A model generated the notes under the pieces. The model was given only the letters and a program-made list of their open reading frames with translations, was not told the DNA's origin and did no database searches. A stretch of 64,000 nucleotides of DNA from Tillus elongatus (lineage: Eukaryota; Arthropoda; Insecta; Coleoptera; Cleridae), in NCBI GenBank assembly GCA_964006375.1, contig OZ023267.1, positions 80,671,682 through 80,735,681 on the forward strand, read 5' to 3'. Shown here piece after piece: positions 25,216 to 51,052 of the stretch (position 1 is its first letter; every line of letters starts with the position of its first letter). A program made the translations under genes and the position numbers.

Positions 25216-25602
25216 GACTAAAACACAGAAATGTTTGAGTCTTTTATTTAAAAAATTTAAACATAAGTGTCCACAATTACAAGTATTATATTTCTGATAC
25301 ACATCATGATTGTACATTAAAGTAGAGTCTTTAAGGTAACGCTGCAACTCAACTGGTGGCTTCAAGTTTCCATATGAGTCAAAGTACACGGCTTTGCCAC
25401 CACGTTTCTTAACTGCAACCCAATGACTACCAGGCTCCTTGTTTATTTGCAAATTCAGGATCAACGATTCATTTTTACGTGGTCCAGTTGATGGCAGTGT
25501 ATCTCGCATGTATACACATCTAAAATATGGGCTCTTCATTTCACCAACAAATTTTATAAGGTCTTCATTTGTTAGAGGTTTCGCTGGTTAACATCTTACT
25601 CG
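25215..25602 (-). pseudogene. P1 adenain-like cysteine protease
   Basis: His (PGSHW), Asp (VYFDSYGNLKPP) and Cys (NCGHLC) are all retained in the frame starting at 25539. As in P2, recognisable protease codons continue upstream of the first ATG (PAKPLTNEDLIKF) with no ATG and reach a heptamer A_AAA_AAC (complement at 25602-25608). One stop (TAA) now lies in this leader, so the fused product can no longer be made. Confidence 0.75.
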
Positions 25603-25640
25603 TTTTTTGGCTTTTTCAAATACAACCCTTAACCGTTACG

Positions 25641-39972: not shown

Positions 39973-40047
39973 TCTATCCTTGCAGCGCTACACCCCACTG
40001 AAGATAATCCACATCGCTTATCTCATTATTTACCATATGAGAACGAA

Positions 40048-43032
40048 TTGGATTTTACAGGTATTGAATTTCCCGTTTCGTTAAATCAAATTACCCAGTT
40101 TGAACAACAAAACAATATTTCTATCAATGTTTACGGGTTGGATAAAGATTTTAATAACGGTAAATTTAATTATGAAATTTGTGGTCCTCTATATTTTACT
40201 ACTTCTCGCAAGACCAGACATATTAACTTATTATTGTTAACAGATGAAATTGAAAGCAACACTCATTATTGTTTAATTAAAGATATGTCTCGTCTTGTGA
40301 GAAGTCAAATATCTAAACGTGCATGTAAAAAATTCCTTTGTGATGGTTGTTTAGTCTTTTTTGGAACAGAAGCAAAATTAGTTGAGCATCAGAAATTCGA
40401 TTGTAATCATGTTAGAGTAAATTTACCAACAACTGAGATGCGGAAGGATAAGTATGGTAAATACACACCCGAGAATTTACTTAGATTTGTCGATTTTGAA
40501 AAGAAAATGCGTGTTCCTTTCGTTGTGTATGCTGATTTTGAGAGTCTTTTGTCCCCTTTAGAAACTGAACATCCTCAAAATTGTTGCGAGTCATTCACAC
40601 AAAAGACTCACAAACACATACCGTATTCGTTCGCGTACTACATTAAATGTTCTTTTGACGACTCGCTATCAAAATTTGTCACTTACCGTGGTCAGGATGC
40701 CGCGAGCGTTTTTGTAGAGCGCTTAGAAAATGATGTTAGAGAGATTTATCAAAACCATATAAGCAAAGTTTGGCCAATAACACCTTTAACCGATGAACAA
40801 GAGCGCGAATTTCAAAATTCTAATTTATGTCACATTTGTGAAAGATCTTTCGGCCCCGATGAGGAGAAGGTTCGTGACCACGACCATTTGCTCGAATTCA
40901 ATAATTATCGCGGTCCGGCTCACTCTATCTGCAATCTAAATTATCAAGTTCCTAAATTCATTCCGGTATTGTTTCATAATCTCTCAGGGTACGATGCGCA
41001 TCTCTTCATCAAAGAGTTGGCAGAGTACGAGTCAAAATTAGATGTCATCGCTCAAAACAAAGAGCGGTACATAACTTTTAGTAAACATGTTTTGGTTAAT
41101 CAGGAGGAGTCGGAAGATGGGACAACGAAAAAAACCCACATTAAACTTAGATTTTTGGATTCGTTTAGGTTTATGGCTAAAAGTTTAGAAAAATTAGCAA
41201 AAAATTTAGAAGACAGTCAGTGTAGGGAAGTCAAAAAATATTTCGCAGATGTAAACAAGTTTAATTTAATTCGGCAGAAGGGTGTATTTCCATATTCGTA
41301 TGTAGACTCCTTTGATAAATTAAATGAGACTAAGCTTCCATCACAGTCGGGATTTTATGATAATCTAAGAGGTGAACACATCATACAGTCTGACTATGAG
41401 CGTGCGTGTAAGGTGTGGCAGACGTTTGAGTGTAGAACTTTAGGGGGTTATTCAGATCTATATTTAAAATCAGATGTGTTACTTTTAGCTGATGTGTTTG
41501 AGAATTTTAGGAATGTTTGTTTTGAGGTGTACAATCTCGATCCTTGTCAGCATGTCACAGCTCCATCTCTTGCTTGGAATGCTGCCCTAAAAGCTACTGG
41601 GGTGGAGCTGGAACTGCTAACAGACATCGAGATGCATCACTTTTTCAAAAAAGGTATACGGGGTGGTGTCAGTCAATGCAGTGTCAGACGGGCAGTAGCT
41701 AACAACGAACATACTCCTAATTATGACGCTACAAAGCCGAAAACATGGCTTATCTATACAGATGCTACAAATTTGTACGGAAAAAGTCAAAGCGAGCCAT
41801 TAGCAATCGGAAGCTTTCGTTGGCTTTCCGAAACCGAAATTCAAAATTTAGAAATTCAAACTTTGGGGGATAACGACGAATTTGGTTATGTTTTGGAAGT
41901 CGATTTAGAATATCCGGAGAGTCTACATGACTTACACAATGAATTACCCTTTTGTCCAGAATCATTCATACCCCCAAACGCGAAACTACCGAAACTTATT
42001 CCAAATTTAAACGATAAAACTAAATATATTATTCATTATAGGAATTTAAAGCAGTGTTTAGGCCACGGACTGGTTTTGAAGAAAATACACCGCGTTATAA
42101 CATTTAGGCAATCTCCATGGCTGAAAATTTATATCGATAAAAACACAAACTTACGAAATTTATCTAAAAATGAATTTGAGCGCGATTTCTTTAAATTAAT
42201 GAACAACGCGGTATTCGGTAAGACCATGGAAAATTTGGACAAGAGGGTGGACGTGAAACTGGTGACGCACTGGGATAATATCGGCCGTAAACCGGGTGCG
42301 GCGGCATACATTAACAAACCACACTTTAAAAATCATTCAATTTTCACGGACGACTTTGTCGCTATACAAATGAACAGAACTCACGTGACGTATGACAGAC
42401 CTATATATGTTGGTTTTTCGATATTAGATGTATCAAAAACCATCATATATGGGTTTCTGTACGACTACTTAAAGACAAAGTATGGTGACAAAGTGACTTT
42501 ACTGTACACCGATACGGACTCGTTGATTATTTTAGTAGAGACAGACAACTTTTATGACGACATGAAACAAGACATTGACAAATACGATACATCAAACTAC
42601 TCGGCTGATAATCCACACGGTATACCGGTGAGCGAGAGTGTGTTAGGACGAATGAAAGACGAGTATAAGGGTAAAATTTTATACGAAATGGTTGGGACGG
42701 GTGCAAAATCATATATGATTGATGGGGAGGGTATTTTAACAAAGAAAGCGAAAGGAGTGCAAGAATGTGTAACGAAAAGGGATTTGAGTGCTGAGGATTA
42801 TATGAATGTTGTGGATAGCATGGGTGAAACAAAAATGAATGATGATGGATGCGTGGTAGTACAGGATGGACGAGTTTTTAAAAGTATGAATGTTTTCCGA
42901 ACGAGACTGCATGATGTGTTCACACAAATGGTTAATAAGGTAGCATTATCACATTTTGATGATAAACGGTATCTTCTATCAGATTCATATAAAACATTAG
43001 CTTGGGGTCATAAACAGATCGTGAAAAAGTAA
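40048..43032 (+). CDS. Protein-primed type family B DNA polymerase (Polinton PolB), 994 codons from this Met
   Basis: It replicates the element. Exonuclease motifs: Asp163 and Glu165 in YADFESLL, Asp316 in NLSGYDAHLF, and Asp476 in YLKSDVLLLAD. Polymerase motif A is Asp572 in TDATNLYG, motif B about 716-725 in KLMNNAVFGK, motif C Asp822/Asp824 in YTDTDS, followed by GAKSY. Between Exo I and Exo II a CHICERSF...VRDHDHL...RGPAHSICN insert resembles an endonuclease VII-type HNH zinc module, known in Polinton polymerases. The frame is open over the full core. Upstream it is continuous with the zinc-finger exons except for the TGA at 39970, so either it is recently inactivated or it starts here. 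It is followed by AATAAA at about 43379. Confidence 0.95.
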   Translation: MDFTGIEFPVSLNQITQFEQQNNISINVYGLDKDFNNGKFNYEICGPLYFTTSRKTRHINLLLLTDEIESNTHYCLIKDMSRLVRSQISKRACKKFLCDGCLVFFGTEAKLVEHQKFDCNHVRVNLPTTEMRKDKYGKYTPENLLRFVDFEKKMRVPFVVYADFESLLSPLETEHPQNCCESFTQKTHKHIPYSFAYYIKCSFDDSLSKFVTYRGQDAASVFVERLENDVREIYQNHISKVWPITPLTDEQEREFQNSNLCHICERSFGPDEEKVRDHDHLLEFNNYRGPAHSICNLNYQVPKFIPVLFHNLSGYDAHLFIKELAEYESKLDVIAQNKERYITFSKHVLVNQEESEDGTTKKTHIKLRFLDSFRFMAKSLEKLAKNLEDSQCREVKKYFADVNKFNLIRQKGVFPYSYVDSFDKLNETKLPSQSGFYDNLRGEHIIQSDYERACKVWQTFECRTLGGYSDLYLKSDVLLLADVFENFRNVCFEVYNLDPCQHVTAPSLAWNAALKATGVELELLTDIEMHHFFKKGIRGGVSQCSVRRAVANNEHTPNYDATKPKTWLIYTDATNLYGKSQSEPLAIGSFRWLSETEIQNLEIQTLGDNDEFGYVLEVDLEYPESLHDLHNELPFCPESFIPPNAKLPKLIPNLNDKTKYIIHYRNLKQCLGHGLVLKKIHRVITFRQSPWLKIYIDKNTNLRNLSKNEFERDFFKLMNNAVFGKTMENLDKRVDVKLVTHWDNIGRKPGAAAYINKPHFKNHSIFTDDFVAIQMNRTHVTYDRPIYVGFSILDVSKTIIYGFLYDYLKTKYGDKVTLLYTDTDSLIILVETDNFYDDMKQDIDKYDTSNYSADNPHGIPVSESVLGRMKDEYKGKILYEMVGTGAKSYMIDGEGILTKKAKGVQECVTKRDLSAEDYMNVVDSMGETKMNDDGCVVVQDGRVFKSMNVFRTRLHDVFTQMVNKVALSHFDDKRYLLSDSYKTLAWGHKQIVKK

Positions 43033-47774: not shown

Positions 47775-48587
47775 ATGTTGGTGTGCCAAGGTGAAGGTCT
47801 TGTTAACACAGCCATCAACAAATTACCTGTTGAGCTGCATGTTCCTGGTTATCAGTTTTGTGGTCCAGGTACTAAACTTAAAGAACGTTTAGCAAGAGGT
47901 GATCAAGGTATCAATCCTCTAGATCGTGCTTGTCGAGATCACGATATCGCATACTCTCAATCAAAACTGTTAAGTGATAGACATCGAGCTGACGAGGTGC
48001 TGGAGAACCGAGCTTGGGAGAGAGTAAAGTCGAAGGACGCAAGTTTTGGTGAAAAGTTAGCTGCTTGGGGTGTTACAAACACTATGAAAGTTAAAAGAAA
48101 GCTTGGTATGGGTTTAACCCTAAAGACAACCACCAAACGTAAACGTAGCAGTAAAAAAGTAAAATGTGGCGGTAAAATACCATTTAAAAACATAATAAAT
48201 TTAATGAAAGGTGCCATAGCTGTGGGTGCGGAAGTTCCATCTGTAAAAAATTTACTACATGTAGCGAGAAAAGTAATTAAAAATGCTGGTGGTCGTAAGA
48301 AAGTCAAGACACCTAGAGTTATTCCAGTACCGAAAAGTGGAGGTTTCCTTCCACTACTACCTTTAATTTTTGGTGGTCTATCAGCGCTAGGAGCTCTAGG
48401 TGGTGGTGCTGCAGGCATTGCTAAAGCAGTTAACGATGCTAAATCAGCCAAACAAAAATTGGAAGAAGCAAAACGTCATAACCAAACGATGGAGGCTATT
48501 GCTGTTGGTCAACGAGGTAGTGGCTTGTATATGAAGAAACAGCGAAGCGGTTTCGGTTTGTATTTACATAAACCAAAAAACGTGTAA
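47775..48587 (+). CDS. Phospholipase A2 domain fused to pX-like minor capsid protein, 270 aa
   Basis: Residues ~22-64 form a viral PLA2-type core: calcium loop GYQFCGPGTKL (25-35) and catalytic His56-Asp57 in ACRDHDIAYS, the arrangement of the parvovirus VP1 unique region. A basic middle (KTTTKRKRSSKKVK) follows. From about residue 186, VPKSGGFLPLLPLIFGGL and a Gly/Ala-rich hydrophobic stretch resemble adenovirus pX/pVI-type core or membrane-active proteins. The combination suggests endosomal membrane breach by an internal capsid protein. The last codons (cca aaa aac gtg taa) contain a slippery heptamer in the zero frame. Confidence 0.85.
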   Translation: MLVCQGEGLVNTAINKLPVELHVPGYQFCGPGTKLKERLARGDQGINPLDRACRDHDIAYSQSKLLSDRHRADEVLENRAWERVKSKDASFGEKLAAWGVTNTMKVKRKLGMGLTLKTTTKRKRSSKKVKCGGKIPFKNIINLMKGAIAVGAEVPSVKNLLHVARKVIKNAGGRKKVKTPRVIPVPKSGGFLPLLPLIFGGLSALGALGGGAAGIAKAVNDAKSAKQKLEEAKRHNQTMEAIAVGQRGSGLYMKKQRSGFGLYLHKPKNV

Positions 48588-48643
48588 AGTGTTTACCAGC
48601 AAGACCTCTAACAAATATAGATCTTGTAAAATTTGCTGGTAAA
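48575..48643 (+). promoter_or_regulatory. Candidate -1 ribosomal frameshift site (slippery heptamer plus stem-loop)
   Basis: A_AAA_AAC occupies 48575-48581 with the codon phase required for -1 slippage. After a 10-nt spacer, TTTACCAGCAA (48592-48602) pairs perfectly with TTGCTGGTAAA (48633-48643), an 11-bp stem with a 30-nt loop. The -1 frame is closed just upstream (TAA at 48569) and open from 48572 through the protease. P1 keeps the heptamer and a 9-bp stem containing two G-U pairs. Frameshifting itself is inferred. Confidence 0.65.
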
Positions 48644-49057
48644 ATGAAAATTCCATATTTTAGAGGTGTATACATGCGAGATACTTTACCATCGAATGGA
48701 TCACGCAAGAATGAATCATTTATCATGAATTTGCAAACAAACAAAGAGCCAGGTAGTCATTGGGTTGCAGTTAAGAAACGTGGTGACACAGCCGTGTACT
48801 TTGACTCATATGGAAACTTGAAGCCACCAAATGAACTGTTGTATTATCTTAAAAACTGTACTATATTGTATAATCATGATGTATATCAAAAGTATAATAC
48901 TTATAATTGCGGTCACTTATGTTTAAAATTTTTAAATAAAAGACTTAAACAGTATTATCTGTGTTTCAGTCATGGCGCGTACGTTTGCTTTGAAGGGTTC
49001 TACGTCCTCTTTATCGATGGAAATATTTCCACCGTTAGTATTAAAACCACACTTTGA
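48581..49057 (+). CDS. Adenain-like cysteine protease (maturation protease)
   Basis: Numbered from the first Met at 48644, the catalytic residues are His39 (PGSHWVAV), Asp54 (VYFDSYGNLKPP) and Cys89 (NCGHLCLKFL), the order of the adenovirus protease family. It cleaves capsid precursors during assembly. Upstream of the Met, 21 more codons in frame (RVKCLPARPLTNIDLVKF...) read like the usual Polinton protease N-terminus (PLTNxDI) and are conserved in P1, yet contain no ATG. I therefore place the coding start at the frameshift point 48581, giving a fusion to the PLA2/pX protein. The 3' end overlaps the penton gene. Confidence 0.85.
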   Translation, partial: RVKCLPARPLTNIDLVKFAGKMKIPYFRGVYMRDTLPSNGSRKNESFIMNLQTNKEPGSHWVAVKKRGDTAVYFDSYGNLKPPNELLYYLKNCTILYNHDVYQKYNTYNCGHLCLKFLNKRLKQYYLCFSHGAYVCFEGFYVLFIDGNISTVSIKTTL

Positions 49058-49751
49058 GTATTCGCTCGCGCTTGCAAACTTTCATACATATAACACTATA
49101 CCAAACATAGAACGTGGGTGTAATAAGTTTCATTATTTTTCTGCTGTGAGTGGTAGAAAGATTCGACAAGAAATAAGTATTCCTGATGGTTCATATGAAA
49201 TCAGTGATATCGAGAAATACATTCAGAATGAGTTGTTACGACGTTATATTAAAGATAAACATCTGGACCCTGCAGTAGAACACAACATCGATGTGGTAAA
49301 ACTGTTTTCGCTAAAAGCCAACAACAACACTTTGAAATGTGAGATTACATGTCAGTATGATATAGACTTTTCTACCGATGCTTCAATAGCACCAATATTG
49401 GGATTTTCTAAACAACGTCTTGCTACAGGTAAACTTTACGTTTCCAATTTACCCGTAGAAATTGTACGAGTAAAGACGATTCGTTTGGAATGCAACATAG
49501 TAGATGGTTCTTACCACGATGGAAAACCTACACATACAGTATGTGAGTTTGCTCCTATGGTAGACCCTGGTTATGCGATTGATATAAAACCATATAGTAA
49601 GGTTTTTATGCCTCTTACCACACGTATCATTTCGCATATAAATGTAAACATTATCGATCAGAATTCAGTACCTGTGAACTTTCAAGGTGAGGAGATCATT
49701 GTGATATTGGAGTTGAAAGAGACACCAACATATTATGCTGATTATAAATAG
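48972..49751 (+). CDS. Penton-like minor capsid protein (single jelly-roll), 259 aa
   Basis: It corresponds to the Polinton minor capsid protein that closes the five-fold vertices. Features include N-terminal MARTFALKG, IPDGSYEISDIEKYIQNEL, ILGFSKQRL and, near the C-terminus, NIVDGSYHDGKPTHTVCEF, then VDPGYAIDIKP and IIDQNSVPVNFQGEEIIVIL. The last is the conserved closing strand (DQxxxxVNFxGEEI). The start overlaps the protease frame. The length is in the usual 200-300 range. Confidence 0.85.
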   Translation: MARTFALKGSTSSLSMEIFPPLVLKPHFEYSLALANFHTYNTIPNIERGCNKFHYFSAVSGRKIRQEISIPDGSYEISDIEKYIQNELLRRYIKDKHLDPAVEHNIDVVKLFSLKANNNTLKCEITCQYDIDFSTDASIAPILGFSKQRLATGKLYVSNLPVEIVRVKTIRLECNIVDGSYHDGKPTHTVCEFAPMVDPGYAIDIKPYSKVFMPLTTRIISHINVNIIDQNSVPVNFQGEEIIVILELKETPTYYADYK

Positions 49752-49947
49752 TAGTAATCAAACCGCTCCAGCTTCAGTATCTTCGCTACCTGAGTCGAAA
49801 GCGGTTCTATCTTGGGAGAACATACAGTTTCTACAATCATTGGGTTACGATGTTAAGCAAACTACATATATTCGCAGACCCTGTGCACGACGAGTCAATC
49901 AGAGGGGAAGAAATACACACATACGCTCCTCAAACCAGATCGTTTGA
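49735..49947 (+). CDS. Small conserved ORF between penton and major capsid genes, 70 aa
   Basis: The first ~42 residues, especially LSWENIQFLQSLGYDVKQ, match P1 LRSDNIEFLKSLGYHVIK. The remainder is read in a frame overlapping the capsid gene and is probably incidental. It overlaps the penton stop by 17 nt and the capsid start by 98 nt, suggesting coupled translation. The function is unknown; it could be a small cement or scaffold peptide. Confidence 0.55.
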   Translation: MLIINSSNQTAPASVSSLPESKAVLSWENIQFLQSLGYDVKQTTYIRRPCARRVNQRGRNTHIRSSNQIV

Positions 49948-51052
49948 CCATAATGATACCTGTGAGTTTGCAATCAACCAACAAGATATTTTTTACGATT
50001 GGTCATCTGTTCTACTGATAAATGGTAGTATTGAGACGAGTGGTACGATTGGAACTGTAGAAGTAACGTCTAATGCAGCAGCTCATTTGTTTTCCTCTAT
50101 TGCGGTTGAAATGTGTAATCAGATTATTGAACATGTGAGAAATCCTGGTATAGTTACATCAATTAGAACACTTTTGGAAGCAAACAGTGATGAAGCAAGA
50201 GCTCTGATTCCGGCGGGATGGCATCCAACCGAAAACAATGTGATGTTAAAAAATGAACGTTTTTGCTACTGCATACCTCTTAGCTACTTGTGTAATATTT
50301 TCAAAGACTATAAAAGAGTGCTTTTCAGTAAATTGCTTCTACGTCTCACTAGAGCTCAGAATGATAGAAATTGCTTTATTTTGATTGGTGCCGCAGATGC
50401 AGATAAGGCATTAAAGTTTAACATTGAGTATATGGCTCTGCAGGTGAAACATATCCACCCTAGTGAAGTTATACAGCAGCAATTATTAAAGTCGATTGCT
50501 CTAGATAAGAAAATCCTTATACCATACAGAAAATGGGAGATGTATGAATTACCAAATCTAAATAATTCAACGAAAGACTTGTGGTCTATTAAGACATCCT
50601 CAAACACTGAACGACCCAGATTTGTTATTGTGATATTCCAAACAGATCGATACAGTAACGTTAGAAAAAACATCAACGAGTTTGATCATGTGGGTATTCG
50701 AGATATAAGACTTCACTTAAATTCGAAACAAATACCCACAGAGGGTATGAACCTGAACTTTAACCAAGCAAATTACGTCGAGGCATATAGAAACATGATT
50801 GAATTTCAACGTTCGTATGTTGGTAGAGAACCACAGCCTACCTTGGATTACAAGTCTTTCCTAAAATATCCCATGTTTGTATTTGATTGCTCCAAGTATA
50901 GCGACTCTATAAAACCTTCTACTGTGGATATCAAATTGGAAATGGAAAGTACTACCAACTTTCCCACTCACACAAAATGTTTTTGTGTAATTATACATGA
51001 TTGCGTCATCGAGTATGCCCCACTCTCCAACATCGTACGCTATATAATGTAG
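49850..51052 (+). CDS. Major capsid protein (double jelly-roll), 400 aa
   Basis: It is the Polinton hexon-like protein, identified by position after penton and by features shared with other Polinton capsids: an N-terminal segment before FAINQQDIFYDWSSVLLING (first barrel start), PLSYLCNIFKDYKRVLFSKL followed by LLLRLTRAQND (the P-LS-IFG...DY-KVL...L-LTR-xxD region), LIPYRKWEMYEL and the C-terminal CVIIHDCVIEYAPLSNIVR. The frame is open throughout and P1 has a broken homologue. The capsid role is from family knowledge. Confidence 0.85.
   Translation: MLSKLHIFADPVHDESIRGEEIHTYAPQTRSFDHNDTCEFAINQQDIFYDWSSVLLINGSIETSGTIGTVEVTSNAAAHLFSSIAVEMCNQIIEHVRNPGIVTSIRTLLEANSDEARALIPAGWHPTENNVMLKNERFCYCIPLSYLCNIFKDYKRVLFSKLLLRLTRAQNDRNCFILIGAADADKALKFNIEYMALQVKHIHPSEVIQQQLLKSIALDKKILIPYRKWEMYELPNLNNSTKDLWSIKTSSNTERPRFVIVIFQTDRYSNVRKNINEFDHVGIRDIRLHLNSKQIPTEGMNLNFNQANYVEAYRNMIEFQRSYVGREPQPTLDYKSFLKYPMFVFDCSKYSDSIKPSTVDIKLEMESTTNFPTHTKCFCVIIHDCVIEYAPLSNIVRYIM

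Follow-up and report, generated by a model that had tools for sequence, protein, structure and literature searches.

The junction between the PLA2/pX gene and the protease gene of the element P2 is best read as a −1 programmed ribosomal frameshift signal that would yield a pX-protease fusion, a reading to which, on the strength of the sequence, we give a probability of roughly four in five. P2 and a diverged copy, P1, both lie in the window, the whole 64,000-nucleotide stretch of DNA that was analyzed, in a host genome of 1.72 Gb. The DNA supplies a slippery site, its phase, an open −1 frame, a missing start codon, constrained RNA arms and relatives in which the two proteins form one chain; from these we infer ribosome slippage, a fusion ratio, packaging and cleavage. 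On this mechanism, most ribosomes would terminate at the pX stop codon, and a minority would slip on A_AAA_AAC, aided by a downstream stem or pseudoknot, to make a minor pX-protease fusion. Fused to pX, the protease would enter the particle at a low fixed ratio, in the manner of retroviral Gag-Pro, and cleavage would then free the enzyme. The sequence-only reading that first proposed frameshifting here gains support from the persistence of the signal in other copies and from synonymous constraint; a candidate pseudoknot partner and natural fusions are additions to it.

On its plus strand, P2 carries PLA2/pX (PF08398), an adenain-like protease and a double-jelly-roll capsid ORF at 49748-51052 (PF21738), and on its minus strand an A32-like ATPase (PF04665) and an rve integrase (PF00665) with a chromodomain (PF00385, below its cut-off). 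As judged from these matches, the combination of rve integrase plus chromodomain, A32-like ATPase, double-jelly-roll capsid and PLA2 bears the marks of a Polinton/Maverick (adintovirus-like) element. In the place of PolB stands a 1019-aa ORF (39973-43032) with no Pfam match at E 0.01. The single P2 protease has Peptidase_C48 as its sole Pfam match (E 2.9e-4), and a protease profile of 64 rows matches the adenovirus protease 1avp at E 3.6e-5, so that by profile similarity the enzyme is an adenain-type cysteine protease. No Rfam match was found over 48400-48900. Viral contigs yielded no relative when searched with the protease and, when searched with pX, only L081, another polinton-like virus, which lacks this junction in the stretch read; bacterial and archaeal contigs gave no relatives.

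The zero-frame PLA2/pX gene occupies 47775-48587 on the plus strand (270 codons plus stop; E 6.8e-11 for its Pfam match) and has cca aaa aac gtg taa as its last codons. Within them, in X_XXY_YYZ phase, is the slippery heptamer A_AAA_AAC (48575-48581), and the pX stop TAA (48585-48587) lies one codon, GTG, past it. Just upstream of the junction, a TAA at 48569-48571 closes the −1 (protease) frame, and hence no protease start codon is possible further up that frame. The −1 frame opens at 48572 and reads TKKRVKCLPARPLTNIDLVKFAGKM..., so that the overlap usable for a −1 shift is 16 nt, and this sole stretch permitting −1 linkage contains a perfect canonical heptamer. There follows a protease leader, RVKCLPARPLTNIDLVKFAGK, of 21 codons without a start codon (48581-48643), the first ATG of the frame at 48644, and the adenain-like body (48644-48955). 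Everything that the sequence-only reading had described here, namely the in-phase heptamer, the 21 start-less codons and an 11-bp stem, is present. At 48953-48955, P2 has TAT in place of the stop TAG found in close family copies, and the P2 protease frame therefore continues to 49057. The next ORF (48972-49751, plus strand) has its own ATG and lies in the pX frame; it has no Pfam match, and the name penton-like minor capsid gene is taken from its position.

A search of the genome with the P2 protease scored 150 of 4603 candidates, and the listed rows, 96-100% identical, are by sequence one recently expanded family, conservation within which says little. Diverged copies were reached by searching with the P1 protease and with a homologue. 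The resulting alignment holds 80 loci, L001-L080, of which 71 are distinct, with the window's P2 as L001 and its P1 as L031, and 14 stretches at PF08398 matches were added, 12 of them with a junction (10 of a deep Polinton clade and 2 of P2 type) and 2, L092 and L095, without. A script classified 87 of these 92 junctions, the window's own included (L031, L037, L041, L050 and L060 stayed unclassified): 75 are in −1, 11 in frame and 1 in +1. An in-phase A_AAA_AA(C/T) occurs in 72 of the 75 −1 junctions (A_AAA_AAC in 67, A_AAA_AAT in 5), the exceptions being L032 and L054, with no heptamer, and L091, with A_AAA_AAA. Just 3 of the 75 (L054, L067 and L091) have an ATG in the 8 codons that precede the leader's conserved LP. 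The heptamer and the missing ATG thus each persist in 72 of the 75 −1 loci. Thirty of the 75 belong to the near-identical P2 family, L001 among them; without these, 45 of 57 junctions are in −1 and 42 of the 45 have the heptamer. The sequence after the heptamer varies by subfamily (GTG TAA, GAG TAA, GAA TAG, TAA or ATG TGA), and the −1 relation is kept. Moreover, in the 73 loci with a scored run, the codon before AAA is CCA (58), ACA (8), AAA (5), CGA (1) or TCA (1): the amino acid varies and the final A is constant.

At the protein level, the pX set comprised 133 sequences, that is, the best 120 of 2313 homologues, 12 more from the search with a fusion query, and the window's own. In 129 of the 133, the C terminus is Lys-Asn followed by 0-2 residues; the remaining four end KKKFFR, KKKKFH, KKKI and KKRI. 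The residue before KN is in none of the 129 one that lacks an A-ending codon (FYHNDCMW), and such residues make up about 18% of these proteins; since the homologues are mutually related, 0/129 is no formal probability. A protein-level motif would neither avoid exactly FYHNDCMW nor float 0-2 positions from the pX end. Ten proteases called from further upstream (P0011, P0029, P0047, P0048, P0061, P0066, P0071, P0076, P0083 and P0090) have FKKL-xxx-LP in common, which would be the expected appearance of TTY-AAA-AAA-CTN, the same heptamer read in −1. The hosts of the pX homologues are mostly unnamed, and the named ones are insects or insect-endosymbiont records; two Polinton pX proteins, P0171 and P0187, are filed under Rickettsia endosymbionts of insects, probably through host contamination.

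Downstream of the slip site, the 11-bp perfect stem of the sequence-only reading (S1, 48592-48602 with 48633-48643) is real, and it begins after a spacer of 10 nt (48582-48591; 7 nt in one subfamily), a length that counts against frameshifting. Inside the S1 loop, ACCTCTAA (48604-48611) is complementary to TTAGAGGT (48660-48667), the latter arm having 97.6% of its cells paired and no compensatory pairs. With 11 bp in S1, 8 bp in this second helix, S2, and loops of 1, 21 and 16 nt, the geometry is that of an H-type pseudoknot, which S1 and S2 may possibly form. When the 80 nt after the heptamer were folded against shuffles in 17 chosen representatives, z was −1.9 or lower in 13, near 0 in L031 (P1), L045 and L054, and −1.7 in L079; for a stretch of 121 nt, a competing structure is preferred. 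One subfamily does not preserve a third helix, 48621-48628 with 48675-48682, and since this helix also crosses S2 it was rejected.

Among 38 representatives less than 97% identical to one another (mean identity 0.85; many are decayed copies), S1 has 0.054 and S2 0.088 synonymous differences per synonymous site, against 0.345 in the loops, 0.368 elsewhere in the protease and 0.491 in the 3′ part of pX; of 20,000 random codon sets, none is as low as S1 and S2 together or as S1, and 37 are as low as S2. The 7 copies with intact frames give 0.000 for S1, 0.054 for S2, 0.258 for the loops, 0.357 for the rest of the protease and 0.531 for the 3′ part of pX, with 0, 16 and 120 of 20,000 random sets as low as S1 plus S2, S1 and S2, respectively, and with 0 of 71 and 0 of 40 block pairs of S1 shape elsewhere as low. 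Synonymous change is thus suppressed in both helices and not in the loops. S1 had been named before the rate test, but S2 came to light once the low rates were known, and its rate test is therefore not independent. Five codons past S2 (48668-48680) are also low (0.055 for the 38, 0.095 for the 7), which the pseudoknot model does not explain. The covariation looked for in the stem did not appear, and this too counts against frameshifting: helix cells are paired at 97.3%, compared with 36-52% when the arms are slid, but this is no higher than in shuffles, the covariation score is 0.049 against 0.054 shuffled, and there are no double compensatory changes.

The missing start codon could also be accounted for by splicing, with an intron that joins an exon bearing an upstream ATG to the leader through the acceptor tttaccag (to 48599). 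Related adenoviruses splice their late mRNAs, and TTTACCAG, immediately before the leader, does resemble a 3′ splice site. No such acceptor, however, was seen in the deep-clade loci of this genome, where the A-rich run stays in most, and an intron would leave the phase-locked KN at the pX end unexplained. Intact vertebrate Mavericks are moreover reported as intronless in the accessible text of PMC8097293. We consider splicing very unlikely.

A second possibility is that the protease simply starts at the internal ATG at 48644 (MKIPYF...), reached by leaky scanning or on a transcript of its own, with the codons upstream untranslated. This ATG has A at −3. The starts of the best 120 protease homologues bear on the matter, with the caveat that they are gene-caller choices and no evidence of real starts: 56 lie within 3 residues of LP (54 beginning with Met, P0067 and P0119 not), 34 lie further upstream, and 30 were left over by the regular expression. 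By eye, 26 of those 30 begin inside or after the leader, as an internal start would have it, and P0006, P0039, P0052 and P0102 have a diverged leader. Yet at least 54 of the best 120 place Met ahead of the leader, ten ATGs intervene between the pX start and 48644, and the leader is conserved in 64 aligned rows, though the rows were chosen for containing it. The AlphaFold model of a natural fusion, P0243 (30 sequences, mean pLDDT 75.8, pTM 0.38), is confident in the PLA2 and protease domains and not in the linker; its leader equivalent (266-283) holds a helix at 273-282, the first of the protease domain, with pLDDT block means of 85-96. In the model, then, the leader is part of the folded protease, and a start at 48644 would lose the helix. 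Taken together, we give translation from 48644 little credence. An ATG some 30 codons upstream in the protease frame, inside pX, occurs in two subfamilies (e.g., L065 and L061), but P2, L033, L077 and L068 have none, and it is thus not a general start.

In adenovirus, a peptide derived from pVI activates the protease, and P2 is similar in that the tail of a core or capsid protein would work with the protease; it differs in that the P2 partner would be a covalent fusion and in that the P0243 model shows no tail docking. The pX tail (237-258, pLDDT <50) is not placed on the protease in this model, which leaves cis-activation of the protease by the tail unsupported.

The protease starts also bear on the proposal of the sequence-only reading to check whether the lack of an upstream ATG persists in related Polintons. 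It does in 72 of the 75 −1 loci but not in at least 54 of the best 120 protease homologues, nor in the subfamily copy L067, and both exceptions count against frameshifting. Many relatives, having Met at the leader, can make the protease by itself; an ATG at that place may also give free protease, and the P2 family would then be the stricter case. In L067 (C10:3908401-3909071), the junction reads AAC ATG TGA TGC, with the slip site kept and a TGATG overlap that provides the protease's own ATG. Termination-reinitiation or non-AUG initiation at the junction, with the A run as mere context, could draw on this stop-start overlap and on pX tails ending in Q, which would be compatible with ATGA overlaps in other species, but it is the least likely explanation, since the 7 codons that lead from the −1-frame stop to LP in P2 include none of ATG, CTG, GTG, TTG and ACG, and neither the phase nor the A-ending codon before the run would need conserving.

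Transcriptional slippage or variation of run length in the DNA deserves a separate word, with the notion that a polymerase adds or drops an A, so that part of the mRNAs would be in frame. Of the P2-type loci, seven are in frame, six owing to one extra A, and two extra-A copies, L082 (181-1371) and L083 (179-1378), have unbroken pX-protease ORFs, of 396 aa from an ATG and 399 aa as called from a TTG, respectively. In the deep clade (L084-L091, L096 and L097), the junction is a T plus A run, the longest T run being 4-10 and the longest A run 4-18, and the frame is variable: of the 10 loci, 5 are in −1, 4 in frame and 1 in +1. That only half are in −1 counts against frameshifting, and for this clade slippage of polymerases is a live alternative. 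The frame relation there differs between copies as if the T/A run were hypermutable. For the P2 family, by comparison, the run is just A6 and is followed by constrained RNA helices that a slipping polymerase would not need, and polymerase slippage or run-length change is accordingly an improbable account of P2.

A search with the L082 fusion returned 36 proteins, among the best 120, that match at least 95% of the unbroken fusion, so that single chains with both domains do exist in nature. Sixteen of the 36 carry only lgn, ena or jgi labels and were taken, from the labels, as raw-contig calls; the other 20 come from annotated genomes (e.g., Aquatica leii, Exocentrus adspersus, Lucilia cuprina, Temnothorax and Trichogramma kaykai), whose annotation may include invented introns. 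KK or KKN stands at the joint in many fusions and is absent in a few (e.g., P0246 and P0251). In the fusion ORFs P0260, P0262, P0265, P0269, P0270 (from an ant), P0272, P0274 and P0280, Lys-Lys-Asn is in frame at the joint, so that slippage there would exit the fusion frame. Pfam Adeno_PX is weakly matched by 3 of 30 fusion proteins (best E 0.0018).

Slippery heptamers are well known from single retroviruses, and P2 would resemble retroviral gag-pro and gag-pro-pol in joining a capsid-side protein to a maturation protease, in a low fusion ratio and in a heptamer followed by an RNA structure. P2 differs in being a double-stranded DNA transposon-virus, in its adenain-type cysteine protease and in its PLA2/pX partner. 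The pseudoknots of frameshift sites are reviewed in PMC7618472, in the portion available. The sequence-only reading knew of no report of frameshifting for a Polinton protease. This must be narrowed: a 2024 preprint (PMC11071296) proposes, from KnotInFrame predictions, −1 frameshifts at the 3′ end of adintovirus Penton and between Hexon and Adenain (“Hexain”), the latter in one sentence and with no conservation test in the accessible text. The Hexain proposal shares with P2 the proposed −1 slippage, the broad virus group and the protease family, but its partner is Hexon and ours is pX. In the available portions of the literature on Polinton, Maverick and adintovirus frameshifting, slippery sites and fusion, a pX-protease frameshift was not found. 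Sf Maverick, an insect Maverick/Polinton (PMC5803895), likewise has a PLA2-bearing CAP and an adenain-like PRO, which the text available handles as separate ORFs, with neither frameshift nor fusion; the accessible parts of PMC12567637 and PMC3671162 contain nothing on the pX/protease junction.

The recoding signal would bear on whether and how Polintons form particles. A conserved signal linking the protease to a capsid-associated protein would point to selection for protease dose inside the assembling particle and, if true, would bring an animal double-stranded DNA transposon-virus into the range of Gag-Pro-type recoding. Frameshifting may also be the reason that some Polinton proteases look truncated or fused in databases. 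An intriguing possibility, which we advance tentatively and at somewhat less than even odds, is that insect Polintons share a Gag-Pro-like logic in which an A-rich switch toggles the pX/protease relation: −1 frameshifting in the P2 family and most KN-ending pX genes; constitutive fusion with one more A, as in the A7 copies here and in other insects; and, for ants and a wasp, a fusion ORF with Lys-Lys-Asn still in frame, from which slippage would release pX alone, in reverse polarity. Recoding would then set the capsid-protease stoichiometry.

P1, finally, had been offered as support for the frameshift reading, and this it provides in part. It retains the heptamer (25602-25608, minus strand), the leader and a stem of 9 bp, two of them G-U, read off the alignment. 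It is also decayed, with stop codons within pX and an in-frame TAA at 25588-25590 between heptamer and leader, and shuffles fold as well as its stem does (z −0.1). Taken alone, P1 is weak support for frameshifting. In some copies, such as P1 (25000-25587, minus strand) and L034 (400 aa), the open protease frame extends beyond the point where the next gene begins.
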